From Paenibacillus sp. AN1007 (GTDB taxonomy: Bacteria; Bacillota; Bacilli; Paenibacillales; Paenibacillaceae), in contig NZ_CP159992.1 in assembly GCF_040702995.1 (NCBI RefSeq), forward strand, positions 1,637,501 to 1,701,500: 64,000 nucleotides of DNA, in the 5' to 3' direction. This document shows positions 32,368 to 37,883 of the stretch, one piece after another. How positions within the stretch are numbered: position 1 is the first letter of the stretch; the number at the start of each line of letters is the position of its first letter. The notes under the pieces were generated by a model. It made no database searches, was not told the origin of the DNA, and worked only from the letters and a program-made list of their open reading frames with translations. The translations under genes and the position numbers were made by a program.

Positions 32368-32404
32368 TTGCACAAATTAACATATTAATTGATAATGATT
32401 ATCA
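32368..32404 (+). promoter_or_regulatory. Promoter with perfect Fur operator, AraC-SBP copy 1
   Basis: -35 TTGCAC (32368-32373), 17-base spacer, -10 GATAAT (32391-32396). The perfect 7-1-7 Fur operator TGATAATGATTATCA (32390-32404) covers the -10, so iron-loaded Fur would block it. The ATG lies 55 bases downstream. Confidence 0.85.
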
Positions 32405-32458: not shown

Positions 32459-34411
32459 ATGTGGAATGAATATTATATACTCTGGAATTATGCCGCAGTG
32501 AATATAGCAGATATTCGTTATGTGGAATTTAGAGCGTATGAAGAGATGAAATATAAATTTCCATCACATACCTTTATTCTCACTTTTCAGGGTAATGCTG
32601 GAGTGATAATTGATAATGTGAATTATGAAGTGAATCGGATTTATGTTCTCCATGGGGGAAAGGGGAGTGAATTGGTTATTCAAGCAGGAGAAGCCGGCTT
32701 ACGATTGTATTACTTGATGTATAGGGCCGAACTGCCTAGAGCGGGAAGAGATTATCTGCAAAAGATAATGGATCGTACCAATCCGTTTCAGATGAATTTT
32801 GGCCTTTCACCAGACAAGCCAACCATGTTATATGAGCAGTTGAAACAGATGCATATTTTGTGGAATTCAAAAAAAATGGATCAACATTTTCAGGCCAAAA
32901 GTTTGTTCTTTTCCTTTGTGGAGCAGATATTATCACAGATTTCTTCTGGATCAAAACACAATCGGAGTGCTAAGGAACAGGCCAACAAAATCATGAAAAT
33001 TATAGAATCTTCTTACACACAGCCACTCACGCTTCATGCTTTGGCAGAAATGGTAAACACCAGTCCAAGAAGTTTGTCACGCAAGTTTAAGCAGTCGGTT
33101 GGTACCAGTCCCATCGATTACCTTATCCAGTTTCGTTTATTCAAAGCCAAAGAGATGCTGCTGGAAACCGACGCCACACTGGATGAAATTGCGGCAGGGA
33201 TTGGTTATCCGGATGGTTATTATTTAGGACGTATGTTCAAGAAACATACAGGGCTTTCTCCTATGCAATTCAAGAAAAAATCCTCCATTCCTCTGCATTG
33301 GCCAGATTTGACATCAACCTTGTCTGGAAATGATATTTCCAAAGGTACAGGTAGGAAGTATGTTTATGGTGATGATGATAATCATTATCAATATAAACAT
33401 GGAGGATTCATTCATATGAACAGACAAACAAGAACCGGAATGTTGCTTAGTATGCTTCTAATTCTTACTTTATTGGTCAGTGCCTGCTCAGCAAGTGGCG
33501 CCAATAGTATCGGGGGAGAACCATCAGGAAGCAATGGTTCCCAGACCAAAGTAACAGCGGAGAACCAAAGCAAGACATCTAAAGTACGCACGGTTTCAAC
33601 GATGAAGGGGAGTATCACCATCCCAGATGAACCTAAACGGATTGTGGTTGATCTGTATTTGGGAAGCCTTATTGCTTTGGGAATCAAGCCAGTGGGTACA
33701 CCCGAATTAAATCTCAAGAATCCTTATTTTATTGATTCGCTTGAAGGTGTTCAAAATATTGGGGAATATGAAACGATTTCTCTTGAAAAAGTGTTAGAAC
33801 TTGAACCCGATTTGATTGTGACAGGCAATCCTGAATTATATGACTCGTTTAGCAAAATAGCACCTACCCTTGTTATTCCTTATGGAGAATTCAAAAACAC
33901 TCACGAAGAAATCACCTATTTCGGTGAAGTGCTGAATAAAAAAGAAGAATCCAAAGCCTGGTTAGCTAATTATGATGCTAGAATTGCAGATGCCAAGAAG
34001 CGTGTCAGTGAAGCAATCGATGCATCTGCCGAAGTGTCGGTGATGCAGTTCAATGAAAAAGCTCCATTAGCCTTTGGTGATAATTTTGGTCGCGGAGGTC
34101 AGGCCGTTTATAGCGCACTTGGTTTGAATCCCCCTCCTGATAAAAAAGAGATTTTAATGAAGGAGCAGCTGGTAGAAGTTTCAGCAGAAGCGATCCCGGA
34201 ATTTGCTGGAGACTACATTATTCTAACGGCAGATGACCTAACGCTGGAAGATTTAAAAAACAAAGCAGTCTGGAGTTCTCTGGATGCAGTTAAGAACGAT
34301 CGTGTATTTATATGGAGCCAGGATCGTTCATGGTATTTTGACCCGATTGCAACATTAGATCAAACAGAGGAGCTGGCTGCTTGGTTTACAGAGATTTCGG
34401 GAAAAGAATAA
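32459..34411 (+). CDS. AraC-type regulator fused in frame to siderophore-binding lipoprotein, copy 1
   Basis: One uninterrupted 650-residue frame. Residues 1-150 are a cupin-like AraC sensor domain. Residues 172-273 are two helix-turn-helix units (LTLHALAEMVNTSPRSLSRKF and LDEIAAGIGYPDGYYLGRMFKKHTGLSP). Residues 274-319 form a linker whose segment DNHYQYKHGGF is the translation of a Fur operator and Shine-Dalgarno sequence. Met320 then begins a lipoprotein signal with lipobox VSAC (Cys343), followed by a FecB/FeuA-like iron-siderophore binding domain to residue 650. Domain order matches B. subtilis Btr, which senses bacillibactin in the cytoplasm but lacks such a signal. Whether the cell makes the fusion, the two parts, or both cannot be told from sequence. 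No permease genes adjoin. Confidence 0.85.
   Translation: MWNEYYILWNYAAVNIADIRYVEFRAYEEMKYKFPSHTFILTFQGNAGVIIDNVNYEVNRIYVLHGGKGSELVIQAGEAGLRLYYLMYRAELPRAGRDYLQKIMDRTNPFQMNFGLSPDKPTMLYEQLKQMHILWNSKKMDQHFQAKSLFFSFVEQILSQISSGSKHNRSAKEQANKIMKIIESSYTQPLTLHALAEMVNTSPRSLSRKFKQSVGTSPIDYLIQFRLFKAKEMLLETDATLDEIAAGIGYPDGYYLGRMFKKHTGLSPMQFKKKSSIPLHWPDLTSTLSGNDISKGTGRKYVYGDDDNHYQYKHGGFIHMNRQTRTGMLLSMLLILTLLVSACSASGANSIGGEPSGSNGSQTKVTAENQSKTSKVRTVSTMKGSITIPDEPKRIVVDLYLGSLIALGIKPVGTPELNLKNPYFIDSLEGVQNIGEYETISLEKVLELEPDLIVTGNPELYDSFSKIAPTLVIPYGEFKNTHEEITYFGEVLNKKEESKAWLANYDARIADAKKRVSEAIDASAEVSVMQFNEKAPLAFGDNFGRGGQAVYSALGLNPPPDKKEILMKEQLVEVSAEAIPEFAGDYIILTADDLTLEDLKNKAVWSSLDAVKNDRVFIWSQDRSWYFDPIATLDQTEELAAWFTEISGKE
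33336..33405 (+). promoter_or_regulatory. Internal promoter, Fur operator and Shine-Dalgarno inside copy 1
   Basis: TTTCCA (33336-33341), 17 bases, TATGTT (33359-33364) is a moderate promoter. The perfect Fur operator TGATAATCATTATCA (33376-33390) sits at the expected transcription start. GGAGG (33401-33405) precedes ATG 33416 by ten bases. All of it is also coding sequence of the upstream frame. Confidence 0.75.
33416..34411 (+). CDS. Iron-siderophore-binding lipoprotein, internal start in copy 1
   Basis: Alternative product of 331 residues starting at codon 320 of the larger frame. The signal peptide is MNRQTRTGMLLSMLLILTLL with lipobox VSAC at positions 21-24. A Ser/Gly-rich tether and a class III periplasmic-binding fold follow: ITIPDEPKRIVVDLYLGSLIALGIKPVGT, LEKVLELEPDLIVTGNPELYDSFSKIAPTLVIPYG and the late DRVFIWSQDRSWYFDPIATLDQ. 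Such proteins deliver ferric siderophores to FeuBC/FecCD-type permeases, not present nearby. The dedicated operator and ribosome binding site suggest it is also made alone when iron is scarce. Confidence 0.8.
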   Translation: MNRQTRTGMLLSMLLILTLLVSACSASGANSIGGEPSGSNGSQTKVTAENQSKTSKVRTVSTMKGSITIPDEPKRIVVDLYLGSLIALGIKPVGTPELNLKNPYFIDSLEGVQNIGEYETISLEKVLELEPDLIVTGNPELYDSFSKIAPTLVIPYGEFKNTHEEITYFGEVLNKKEESKAWLANYDARIADAKKRVSEAIDASAEVSVMQFNEKAPLAFGDNFGRGGQAVYSALGLNPPPDKKEILMKEQLVEVSAEAIPEFAGDYIILTADDLTLEDLKNKAVWSSLDAVKNDRVFIWSQDRSWYFDPIATLDQTEELAAWFTEISGKE

Positions 34412-34589: not shown

Positions 34590-34628
34590 TTGATAATGAA
34601 AATTATTATCACTTATAATTGGTATACT
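34590..34628 (+). promoter_or_regulatory. Promoter with Fur operator, AraC-SBP copy 2
   Basis: -35 TTGATA (34590-34595), 18 bases, -10 TATAAT (34614-34619), with a second extended -10 TGGTATACT (34620-34628). The spacer is filled by a 19-base Fur site (34592-34610) that differs from GATAATGATAATCATTATC at two bases. The ATG is about 100 bases downstream. Confidence 0.85.
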
Positions 34629-34721
34629 GTAGTGAACCGTTATTACTCACATTTTTTATCAATTTGGGAGAATGATGAGCTTGTAAACTCTATAGAGTGA
34701 GATAGGATTGGAGAGTATTTG

Positions 34722-36695
34722 ATGCAATTAGACGAACAGATGAAATGCTGGAATCAAGCCGCAGTTAAGGTTCTGGATATCCGTCGAATCGTTATGGAGA
34801 GAGGAGCACAACTGAGTTCCTATTTACTTCCGGCAAATGGATTTATATATACGATTCGGGGATCCGCTCAACTTCAATTAGATGGACAAGCATACCAGGC
34901 GGAGCCATTTTACATGCTTCATGGAGCGAAAGGATCTTCACTGGATATCCAAGCGAATGCAGATTTTGAATATATTCTGCTTTATTACAGAGCATTCCTT
35001 GCCTTTCCTCGTTTTCGAAAAAAAATGTTATTGGCACAGCCCCAGGCTGCACCGTTCTCCTTGCAGTATGGATTTACACCGAGTAATCCACTGGGGCTGT
35101 TACGATATCTTAGTGAGATGGAGAAAGCATGGGCGCAGTCAAGCCATTTAAATCTGCTTCATACTAAAAGTTTGTTTTATCAGTTCATTCATGAGTTGAT
35201 GGTTCAACTGTCTGCACAGGAGGTTCAAACAGAACTTGCGGACCCTGTAAAACAAACCATTCGTTACATCCAGAATCATTACAGAGAGCAGGTTACACTT
35301 GATTTGCTAGCAGAGCAATTTAATTACAGCTCTCGTCATTTATCCATGCGATTTAAAAGAAAGACGGGTTATAGTCCCATCGATTACTTAATTCAGACAC
35401 GAATCGGAAGGGCTAGGGAATTACTCGTGCGCTCTGATGCAAAGCTCGCTTCTATCGCAGCAGAGGTTGGTTATTCGGACGTGTACTACTTCAGCCGTAT
35501 TTTCAAGAAATATGTAGGCATGTCTCCAAGTCTATATCAAAAGAAGATGAGGGAAGAAGGACGAGCTGAAGATCGTCCATTGCATTTATCCGAATCGTCC
35601 ATTGGCTGGAACTTGAAGTCGAGCTATATTGATTATGATAATCATTATCAATATAAAGACGGAGGGTTTACATCGATGAAAAGAAAAAAAACAAGTTCCA
35701 GCATGATCATGATTGCATTGTTAAGTTTAACGATGCTTCTTGCGGCCTGTTCTTCGGGGACGGCAGCTAATCAATCTGCCGGTGCAGGAACGAGTACGAA
35801 TTCCAATAACAGTAATCAGGCAGTAACTTCAGAGACGGGAAGTCAAGTAAACAAAGATAATGAAACACGTACTATCTCAACAATAAAAGGTGATGTGATT
35901 GTTCCAGCTAATCCGGAACGGGTTGTTGTGCTGTATCTCCAGGGGGATGTGGTTGCACTCGGGGTTAAGCCAATCGCTACATCAGATGTATATGATGGGG
36001 CTGCTTACAAGGGTGAGCTTGAAGGTGTGGATTCACTCGGAACCTGGTTCGAACCAAACCCTGAAGCGATCATTGACCTTAATCCAGACCTGATTATTGT
36101 TCCGTCGGAAGAAACATATGACACTTTGAAAAATATCGCACCTACGGTGTATATTCCATATGAGAAAATGACAACAGAAGAACGGCTTCACAGCATAGCC
36201 AGCATCTTTGGCAAAGAAAAGGAAGCTGAAATCTTGATTAACAACCTGAACAGCAAGGTGGAAGATGGGAAGAAAAAACTTGCAGACGCAGGTATATTGG
36301 ATAAAACCATTTCTATTATCGAAGGTGGTTTGAAGAGCATGGTCGTTGTGGAAAGTAAGCAGTTTGGCCGTGGTTCTCAGGTAGTATATGAGTATCTGGA
36401 AATGAAAGCTCCTGAGGTGCTACAAGATAAAATTGATGTAATTTCAGAAGCGGCAGGTTCTACGATTTCTATGGAAGTACTTCCTGAATATATAGGTGAC
36501 TATGTGTTTCGCTCAGTTTATAAAGGGGCAGACAATCTGACGAACAACCCTATATGGCGCAGCATCCCGGCAGTAAAAGAAGGTCGGCTGATCGAGATTG
36601 ATTTTGATTTTTTCTATTATTCAGATGTATATTCAATCAATAAACAACTCGATTTTGTTGTAGATAAACTGTTAGCTGCTCCAAAAGTCCACTAA
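34722..36695 (+). CDS. AraC-type regulator fused in frame to siderophore-binding lipoprotein, copy 2
   Basis: 657 residues, a diverged paralogue of the preceding gene with the same plan. It has a cupin-like sensor domain (1-150), an AraC helix-turn-helix pair (VTLDLLAEQFNYSSRHLSMRF and LASIAAEVGYSDVYYFSRIFKKYVGMSP), and a linker containing DYDNHYQYKDGGF. A lipoprotein signal then begins at Met319 with lipobox LAAC (Cys343), followed by an iron-siderophore binding domain. No stop codon separates the two halves, and the internal ATG is the same number of bases from the frame start as in copy 1. ATG 34722 is chosen after TTGGAGAG; TTG one codon earlier is possible. A Btr-like siderophore sensor is the best family comparison. 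Confidence 0.85.
   Translation: MQLDEQMKCWNQAAVKVLDIRRIVMERGAQLSSYLLPANGFIYTIRGSAQLQLDGQAYQAEPFYMLHGAKGSSLDIQANADFEYILLYYRAFLAFPRFRKKMLLAQPQAAPFSLQYGFTPSNPLGLLRYLSEMEKAWAQSSHLNLLHTKSLFYQFIHELMVQLSAQEVQTELADPVKQTIRYIQNHYREQVTLDLLAEQFNYSSRHLSMRFKRKTGYSPIDYLIQTRIGRARELLVRSDAKLASIAAEVGYSDVYYFSRIFKKYVGMSPSLYQKKMREEGRAEDRPLHLSESSIGWNLKSSYIDYDNHYQYKDGGFTSMKRKKTSSSMIMIALLSLTMLLAACSSGTAANQSAGAGTSTNSNNSNQAVTSETGSQVNKDNETRTISTIKGDVIVPANPERVVVLYLQGDVVALGVKPIATSDVYDGAAYKGELEGVDSLGTWFEPNPEAIIDLNPDLIIVPSEETYDTLKNIAPTVYIPYEKMTTEERLHSIASIFGKEKEAEILINNLNSKVEDGKKKLADAGILDKTISIIEGGLKSMVVVESKQFGRGSQVVYEYLEMKAPEVLQDKIDVISEAAGSTISMEVLPEYIGDYVFRSVYKGADNLTNNPIWRSIPAVKEGRLIEIDFDFFYYSDVYSINKQLDFVVDKLLAAPKVH
35602..35665 (+). 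promoter_or_regulatory. Internal promoter, Fur operator and Shine-Dalgarno inside copy 2
   Basis: TTGGCT (35602-35607), 17 bases, TATATT (35625-35630) is a good sigma-A pair. The perfect Fur operator TGATAATCATTATCA (35636-35650) begins at the predicted start point. GGAGG (35661-35665) lies ten bases before ATG 35676. The operator plus seven following bases are identical to copy 1. Confidence 0.8.
35676..36695 (+). CDS. Iron-siderophore-binding lipoprotein, internal start in copy 2
   Basis: Alternative 339-residue product. A basic head MKRKKTSSS, a hydrophobic core and lipobox LAAC (Cys at position 25) form a classical lipoprotein signal. The Asn/Ser/Thr-rich tether is followed by the binding-protein fold: VIVPANPERVVVLYLQGDVVALGVKPIAT, EAIIDLNPDLIIVPSEETYDTLKNIAPTVYIPY and IEGGLKSMVVVESKQFGRGSQVVYEYL. 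It differs from copy 1 in the C-terminal lobe, so the two may bind different siderophores. Its own Fur-controlled promoter lies inside the regulator coding region. Confidence 0.8.
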   Translation: MKRKKTSSSMIMIALLSLTMLLAACSSGTAANQSAGAGTSTNSNNSNQAVTSETGSQVNKDNETRTISTIKGDVIVPANPERVVVLYLQGDVVALGVKPIATSDVYDGAAYKGELEGVDSLGTWFEPNPEAIIDLNPDLIIVPSEETYDTLKNIAPTVYIPYEKMTTEERLHSIASIFGKEKEAEILINNLNSKVEDGKKKLADAGILDKTISIIEGGLKSMVVVESKQFGRGSQVVYEYLEMKAPEVLQDKIDVISEAAGSTISMEVLPEYIGDYVFRSVYKGADNLTNNPIWRSIPAVKEGRLIEIDFDFFYYSDVYSINKQLDFVVDKLLAAPKVH

Positions 36696-36747: not shown

Positions 36748-36800
36748 TTGTAATTTCAACAGATTTCCATTAAACTTAAACGATAATGAGAATCAATATC
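36748..36800 (+). promoter_or_regulatory. Promoter and Fur operator of the reductase gene
   Basis: TTGTAA (36748-36753), 17 bases, TAAACT (36771-36776), then a 19-base Fur site (36782-36800) differing from GATAATGATAATCATTATC at two bases. It is the fifth Fur site in 4.4 kb. Confidence 0.75.
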
Positions 36801-36845
36801 ACAAAAATCAACATTTTGATTCGAATGGATGGAGGTCCTGTAGAG

Positions 36846-37883
36846 ATGAAACCAGAATTGGAGCTTTATGATGTAACGATAATCGGAGGCGGCCCTGCGG
36901 GCATGTACTCTGCTTTTTATAGCGGTATGCGGGATATGAAAACCAAATTGATTGAGGCACGCGACAGACTAGGAGGACGAATGCTGTTTTATCCAGAGAA
37001 AATGATCTGGGATGTCGGTGGCGTGACTCCAATCCTCTGTGAAGATCTGATTAAGCAGCTTGAACAGCAGGCTCGCACGTTCGATCCCACGCTGGTGTTC
37101 GGGCAGCAAATCGAAGGGTTCGAGCGTCAAGCTGACGGAACGATTCTGTTAACAGCTGCTGGCGGTGAACAGCACTGGACTCGAACGGTTATTATGGCTA
37201 TCGGATACGGTATTTATAAGATGGCCAAGCTGGAGCTTGATGGAGCAGATCGTTATGAAGTGTCGAATTTGCACTACACGGTGCAGGAGCTGGAGCCTTT
37301 CCGGGGCAAACGAGTTCTGATTTCTGGTGGAGGAGATTCAGCTGTAGACTGGGCAAACGAACTGGAGAGTCTGGCCCAGCAGGTAACGGTAGTGCATCGA
37401 CGGGATCACTTCGGCGGGCTGGAGCGGAACGTGCTGCGTATGAAGGAATCTTCGGTCGACGTACGAACTCCTTATGCAATTGAGAAGCTGCACAGTTTGA
37501 GCGGTGATATGATCGAACAGGTAACCATCACACACATGGAGACTGGAGAGACCAAGATGCTTGAAGTCGACGCAGTTATCGTTAATCATGGCATGAAGAG
37601 TGATTTTGGTCCGATCCGTGATTGGGGACTAGATCTGGGTGAATGGCATGTCAGCACAACGGATAGGCTGCAGACCAATATTCCAGGTGTTTTTGCTGCA
37701 GGTGATTTTGTGGATTATGGAAGTAAGCTGTATCTGATCGCAGGTACGTTTACAGATGCTGCACTTGCTGTTAATAGTGCCAAGCTGTATATGGACCCGG
37801 AGGCCGAGAAAGTGGCATATGTATCTTCTCATAACAGCCGCTTCAAAGAGAAAAACAAAGCGCTTGGCGTTGTGGAGGAGTAA
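36846..37883 (+). CDS. Ferredoxin/flavodoxin--NADP+ reductase, YcgT/YumC type
   Basis: 345 residues of the thioredoxin-reductase-like FNR family. The FAD site is [20 protein letters not shown], the NADPH site [20 protein letters not shown], and the C-terminal FAD block [40 protein letters not shown]. The CxxC redox pair of thioredoxin reductase is missing, which fits a ferredoxin reductase. B. subtilis ycgT is Fur-regulated, and this gene also has a Fur site, so it may supply electrons for iron release from siderophores. ATG 36846 follows GGAGG by ten bases; an upstream ATG at 36786 lies inside the operator. Confidence 0.88.

Follow-up and report, generated by a model that had tools for sequence, protein, structure and literature searches.

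The closest known protein to those described here is Btr (YbbB) of Bacillus subtilis, a one-component regulator of the AraC type that carries a FeuA-like binding domain. Btr is cytosolic, has no known internal signal peptide, and activates a separate gene, feuA. In siderophore clusters, 229 of 6,023 Peripla_BP_2 genes were reported to carry another domain, which was HTH_18 in 98.7% of those, and the number of such binding-protein genes per siderophore cluster was reported to be highest in Paenibacillus, at 29:1 (PMC13293324). The domain pair has therefore already been counted; the nested gene arrangement was not found described. Where that paper's text was searched, it contains no reading in terms of an internal start, a lipobox, a nested operator or a gene within a gene, and no description of the nested layout was found in the openly accessible literature, most subscription papers being outside the scope of the search.

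The window, i.e., the whole stretch of DNA that was analyzed, covers 64 kb of a chromosome of 6.64 Mb, and genes at least 80% identical to those of the window were found in Paenibacillus species, e.g., P. amylolyticus and P. xylanexedens. In it lie two tandem relatives, copy 1 and copy 2, each an uninterrupted ORF (Table 1); for copy 2, the ATG at 34722 is a likelier start than position 34719. Pfam placed HTH_18/HTH_AraC in the N-terminal half and Peripla_BP_2 in the C-terminal half of both ORFs, and in both copies a ribosome site, an ATG and a lipoprotein signal lie in frame between the AraC and receptor halves. The AlphaFold model (mean pLDDT 79.7) starts with an N-terminal β cupin-like domain and the double-HTH helices; residues 282-330 form a linker without order, residues 327-343 a helix, and a disordered tail follows. 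The C-terminal domain was confidently modelled and matches FhuD2, FtsB and YfiY. The criteria for a FhuD-like siderophore-binding lipoprotein (Peripla_BP_2 fold plus lipobox) were met, as were those for an AraC/XylS regulator (double HTH plus a direct-repeat site with its halves about two helical turns apart). Both copies also met the Btr criterion of an AraC HTH and a Peripla_BP_2 domain within a single protein. The further Btr criterion, a cytosolic protein with no signal peptide separating the domains, was not fulfilled, given the signal helix (327-343) and the lipobox. Against the Btr equivalog model, NCBIfam NF049932 (531 aa, curated cut-off 900), the two copies scored 87 and 118 bits, and classing them as Btr was rejected. 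Elsewhere in the same genome (G000; L074, L081, L083, L085 and L214) are shorter AraC-SBP fusions of 550-615 aa that resemble Btr and lack both the linker and the lipobox, some of them adjoining separate SBP genes.

The predicted domain order is compatible with that of CadC/ToxR-like transmembrane one-component regulators, in which a cytoplasmic DNA-binding domain is followed by one membrane segment and an outer sensor, but the topology and stability of the segment have not been shown. The hydrophobic segment numbers only about 16 residues, fewer than would be expected of a permanent membrane anchor, and cleavage of the fusion at the lipobox is therefore a possible alternative.

Table 1. Features of the two fused ORFs; positions are those of the window.
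Feature	Copy	Position	Strand	Remarks
Fur box upstream of fused ORF	1	32390-32404	+	perfect 7-1-7
Fused ORF	1	32459-34411	+	650 aa; AraC regulator, internal lipoprotein signal, Peripla_BP_2
AraC-type direct repeat	1	33304-33337	+	22-bp pitch; motif score 16.9 bits
Internal promoter, −10	1	33359-33364	+	TATGTT; geometry as in copy 2
Internal Fur box	1	33376-33390	+	same sequence as copy 2; in frame as (D)DNHYQ
Ribosome site	1	33401-33405	+	GGAGG; ATG at 33416
Internal lipoprotein CDS	1	33416-34411	+	begins MNRQTRTGMLLSMLLILTLLVSAC
Fur box upstream of fused ORF	2	34597-34611	+	1 mismatch
Fused ORF	2	34719-36695	+	658 aa; cupin plus double AraC HTH, linker, signal peptide/lipobox, siderophore-binding domain
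AraC operator half-site 1	2	35573-35582	+	TCGTCCATTG
AraC operator half-site 2	2	35595-35604	+	TCGTCCATTG; 22 bp from half-site 1; overlaps −35
Internal promoter, −35	2	35602-35607	+	TTGGCT
Internal promoter, −10	2	35625-35630	+	TATATT; 17-nt spacer from −35
Internal Fur box	2	35636-35650	+	TGATAATCATTATCA; perfect 7-1-7; in frame as (D)DNHYQ
Ribosome site	2	35661-35665	+	GGAGG; 10-nt gap, then ATG 35676-35678
Internal lipoprotein CDS	2	35676-36695	+	begins MKRKKTSSSMIMIALLSLTMLLAAC; lipobox Cys codon 35748-35750

A sequence-only reading of this DNA had proposed that the same Fur operator is embedded in both copies, in copy 2 together with promoter hexamers, GGAGG, a ten-base gap and an ATG. 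The operator is indeed identical in the two copies, and the shared sequence extends into its flank as a 23-nt run (33375-33397 = 35635-35657); the other copy 2 elements were likewise found in place. That reading had also called the copy 2 promoter "even better". This holds only relative to copy 1, which has a poor −35 as well as a different −10. The −35/−10 hexamers alone are no commoner than in shuffled sequence (12 found vs. 13.9 expected). The hexamers were dropped as stand-alone evidence, and support for the internal promoter rests on the comparative evidence given below.

The Fur regulon criterion, a 7-1-7 box at a promoter, was met in copy 2, where the perfect box begins 5 nt past the −10. 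Fur-like sites with no more than three mismatches numbered 17 in the window, vs. 4.7 ± 2.4 in shuffles, and of the 12 perfect Fur boxes in the whole 6.64-Mb genome, 3 lie inside 3.3 kb at this locus. Fur boxes also precede the long ORFs, here and, with up to two mismatches, in 152 of 209 cases. Right as it was about the operator, the sequence-only reading overlooked these upstream boxes, the AraC repeat that overlaps the −35, and the breadth of the nested layout. Downstream of copy 2, overlapping imperfect Fur boxes (36781-36801) stand ahead of a pyridine-nucleotide oxidoreductase gene (ferredoxin-NADP reductase-like; 36831-37883). The B. pumilus genes bpj08410-08430, for ferredoxin-NADP reductase 2, an HTH regulator and a binding protein, are all listed as members of the Fur regulon (PMC3896406), a parallel which suggests that the neighborhood is conserved.

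The two copies are only distantly alike, with 36% protein identity and 48% codon-aligned DNA identity. In a sliding plot, identity was 68-78% over the operator and 27-45% on either side, so the diverged flanks that had been described are real and a recent duplication, which would not confine the peak to the operator, is excluded. Synonymous divergence was then compared among orthologues. For 36 copy 2 orthologues, pS stood at 0.54 in each of the two AraC regions, fell to 0.187 over the operator/promoter and to 0.055 over the Fur box, was 0.089 between SD and ATG, and climbed back to 0.50 for the signal peptide and 0.56 for the receptor; divergence over the Fur box is thus about ten-fold below that of the flanks (0.055 vs. 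0.54). Twelve copy 1 orthologues gave the same pattern more weakly, with 0.50 in AraC, 0.22 in the operator/promoter, 0.15 in the Fur box, 0.40 from the SD to the ATG, 0.30 in the signal peptide and 0.49 in the receptor. Codon use within the box, assessed in 62 divergent clusters, was GAT in 45/45 cases, AAT in 52/54, CAT in 40/40, TAT in 53/54 and CAA in 45/46; outside the box, the CAA share in the same genes was 44%. The most variable residue of the box is His, Asp, Tyr or Asn (CAT, GAT, TAT or AAT), a variation that falls on the unconstrained base at the center of the 7-1-7 site. The synonymous dip, the codon bias and this residue variation support selection on the internal Fur box region as DNA and not on the peptide alone, as had been proposed from the two copies.

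Searches at the levels of genus, family, order and class gave mostly long matches without an internal stop. From these loci a set of 191 long-linker fused ORFs was extracted; the lipobox is present in all of them and an in-frame Fur box in 190 at up to three mismatches (175 at up to one), always in a single codon phase, GAT-AAT-CAT-TAT-CA. Wider sampling yielded, across the Bacilli, 236 distinct fused ORFs with a lipobox, 224 of them with a Fur box of no more than two mismatches in the identical phase. In 107 non-redundant linkers, the ATG mostly lies 22-23 codons from the lipobox Cys, and a ribosome site is present in 97. Because the sets of 191 and 236 ORFs had been chosen as fused, the search was redone with the AraC half alone as query. 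A fused-length frame was present in all but five of about 150 among the matches listed. Of the exceptions, L220 and L223 are read as decaying copies with a frameshift, L222 has a broken receptor frame, L221 has a fragmentary receptor, and L219 has neither receptor nor Fur box. Frameshifted or truncated fusions occur in a few genomes (L220, L223, L206, L208 and L030), a point against the reading proposed below. At L206, L208 and L030 a stop or frameshift breaks the AraC half but spares both the promoter region of the linker and the frame of the receptor, a natural separation of the products.

Upstream of the Fur box, the linkers carry a direct repeat. In the 107 non-redundant linkers the mean best match was 6.96/9 for a lag of 22, as against some 4.7 for the others (z 10.4), and because 22 is not divisible by three, codon periodicity cannot explain the repeat. 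The fitted motif is GATnnTCCATT-N10-GATnnTCCATT. Its distance to the −10 is fixed in 99 of the 107 linkers, and in 103 of them the repeat scores above the 99th percentile of codon-shuffled linkers. When the 64 kb were scanned with the motif, the two linkers ranked top, at 30.0 bits for copy 2 and the lower score of Table 1 for copy 1; the next site scored 11.3. Upstream of the long ORF, the direct repeat was found at none of 105 loci. A whole-genome pattern search with the copy 2 repeat gave an exact match only in its own linker, plus one three-mismatch match in the linker of a paralogue. Since a reversed control also gave one match, the latter is weak, and a second regulon target was rejected.

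Does the repeat vary together with the protein presumed to bind it? For half-site 1, once the linker itself is set aside, 8 of the 10 top protein columns belong to the pair of AraC recognition helices (p 6e-10), and for half-site 2 the figure is 6 of 10 (p 2e-6). Control DNA from the spacer, upstream and downstream showed no recognition-helix enrichment; the 10 bp between the half-sites showed a weak one (4 of 10 columns, p 8e-4). These p-values ignore the tree, and related sequences were used, the control DNA being the safeguard. A distance-based test in which overall divergence was controlled gave a partial r of 0.49 between repeat and recognition helices, vs. a null maximum of 0.23 (0 of 500 entropy-matched column sets reached 0.49) and 0.001 for control DNA. 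In these alignments, then, the repeat covaries with both AraC recognition helices; binding by AraC is itself inferred, there being no binding data.

Given the observed layout, its conservation, the DNA-level selection, the repeat and its covariation, we consider it likely that each copy is a nested, self-regulating gene with two products. Fur binding and repression, AraC activation, the two products, membrane topology and ligand sensing are inferred only, without transcript, protein or binding data. In the proposed mechanism, an upstream Fur-controlled promoter would have the whole frame read, giving an AraC regulator (cupin plus double HTH) joined to a siderophore-binding domain, and the hydrophobic lipoprotein-signal segment would tether this fusion to the membrane so that AraC lies on the inner side and the receptor on the outer. 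AraC would bind the 22-bp-spaced repeat in its own coding linker and switch on a SigA-type promoter just downstream, which Fur would repress at the embedded box. Translation from the internal ATG would yield only the receptor, a conventional lipoprotein serving uptake. When iron is scarce, Fur would leave the upstream and internal boxes, the AraC part would perhaps be informed by the outer receptor domain, and the combination of iron starvation (Fur off) and the matching siderophore (AraC on) would produce more receptor. With somewhat more reserve, we lean towards a widespread nested-gene class of the Bacilli, in which a membrane-spanning AraC protein with the receptor as its outer sensor is made along with a free receptor lipoprotein, and which is a self-contained cassette of protein, AraC operator, promoter and Fur site, multiplied into paralogues with matched operators.

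It might instead be that two ordinary neighbors, araC and a Fur-regulated lipoprotein gene, lost the intervening stop codon by chance and that the fusion is functionless. Unfused pairs with the same repeat are known in relatives (L241-L246), and the broken copies L206, L208 and L030 keep the receptor while the AraC part decays. We nevertheless regard chance stop loss as improbable: the linker frame is open in 107/107 linkers across 15 lengths, whereas only 32% of them are open in frame +1 and not one in frame +2, and the AraC-half search, unselected for fusion, gave fused frames for nearly all of the matches listed. Another possibility is that the fused polypeptide is the sole product, inserted in the membrane and cut at the lipobox by signal peptidase II into a receptor lipoprotein and a membrane-held AraC. 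The lipobox kept in all long-linker fusions and the positive residues ahead of the hydrophobic helix would fit such processing, but processing alone would leave unexplained why synonymous divergence dips ten-fold across the operator, promoter, Fur box and ribosome site, and why a ribosome site and ATG keep a constant distance of 22-23 codons from the Cys, and we think it rather unlikely that this is the whole story. Lipobox cleavage can, however, coexist with an internal promoter. Both the functionless fusion and the single processed polypeptide are disfavored because neither accounts for the protected frame together with the synonymous dip.

The stretch could also be kept for the peptide YDNHYQYK, e.g., as a metal-binding linker, with the Fur match a by-product, and this Asp/His/Tyr-rich peptide is in fact conserved in most copies. 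Yet its codons are near-invariant at synonymous sites, the pS there is low, as given above, and the residue varies just where the box has its free base; these findings rule out conservation for the peptide only, and we give that explanation almost no weight. If the nested two-product reading is true, a single DNA stretch serves as protein linker, AraC operator, promoter, Fur operator and ribosome site, and the single 650-aa "AraC regulator" call of gene finders conceals a receptor gene in each copy. Given the Paenibacillus ratio of 29:1 reported in PMC13293324, such cassettes may be the means by which this genus copies or re-tunes its siderophore receptors. The matched operators and helices would be a natural data set on AraC-DNA recognition.

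Relatives without the complete arrangement bear on its history. Both the lipobox and the internal start are gone from the fusions L250 and L256-L258, whose Fur box is degraded, and most of these fusions keep the repeat. In the AraC tree, which is midpoint-rooted and of uncertain rooting, they are placed near lipobox-bearing fusions, and loss could therefore give rise to cytosolic forms of the Btr kind. It is possible that they are fossils of the nested gene en route to a Btr-like cytosolic regulator, and they would then mark a route to Btr-type regulators. The same tree does not decide whether the unfused state is ancestral. At L245, a second SBP ORF downstream is a lipoprotein frame without AraC which retains the linker-like stretch QQSSIENGKPIEYTFDDENRFQ, as if it were the fused gene minus its regulator half.

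Known systems can be set beside the fusions. The unfused araC-sbp pairs of other Bacilli (L241-L246) resemble them in gene order and in the 22-bp repeat at the junction, which in L241-L243, from another family of Bacilli, straddles the araC stop codon; they differ in having separate frames and, mostly, no Fur box. Since these distant pairs keep the repeat, fusion is not required for AraC control, which weighs against the proposed reading. Btr shares with the fusions an AraC HTH N-terminal to Peripla_BP_2, an iron/siderophore setting and membership of the Fur regulon, but in the fusions the receptor is nested in the regulator's frame, and lipobox, promoter, Fur box and operator are all intragenic. 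Siderophore-binding lipoproteins of the FhuD/FeuA type match the C-terminal half of the fusions in fold and lipoprotein signal; unlike the nested receptor, they normally have a gene of their own, whose promoter lies outside coding sequence.
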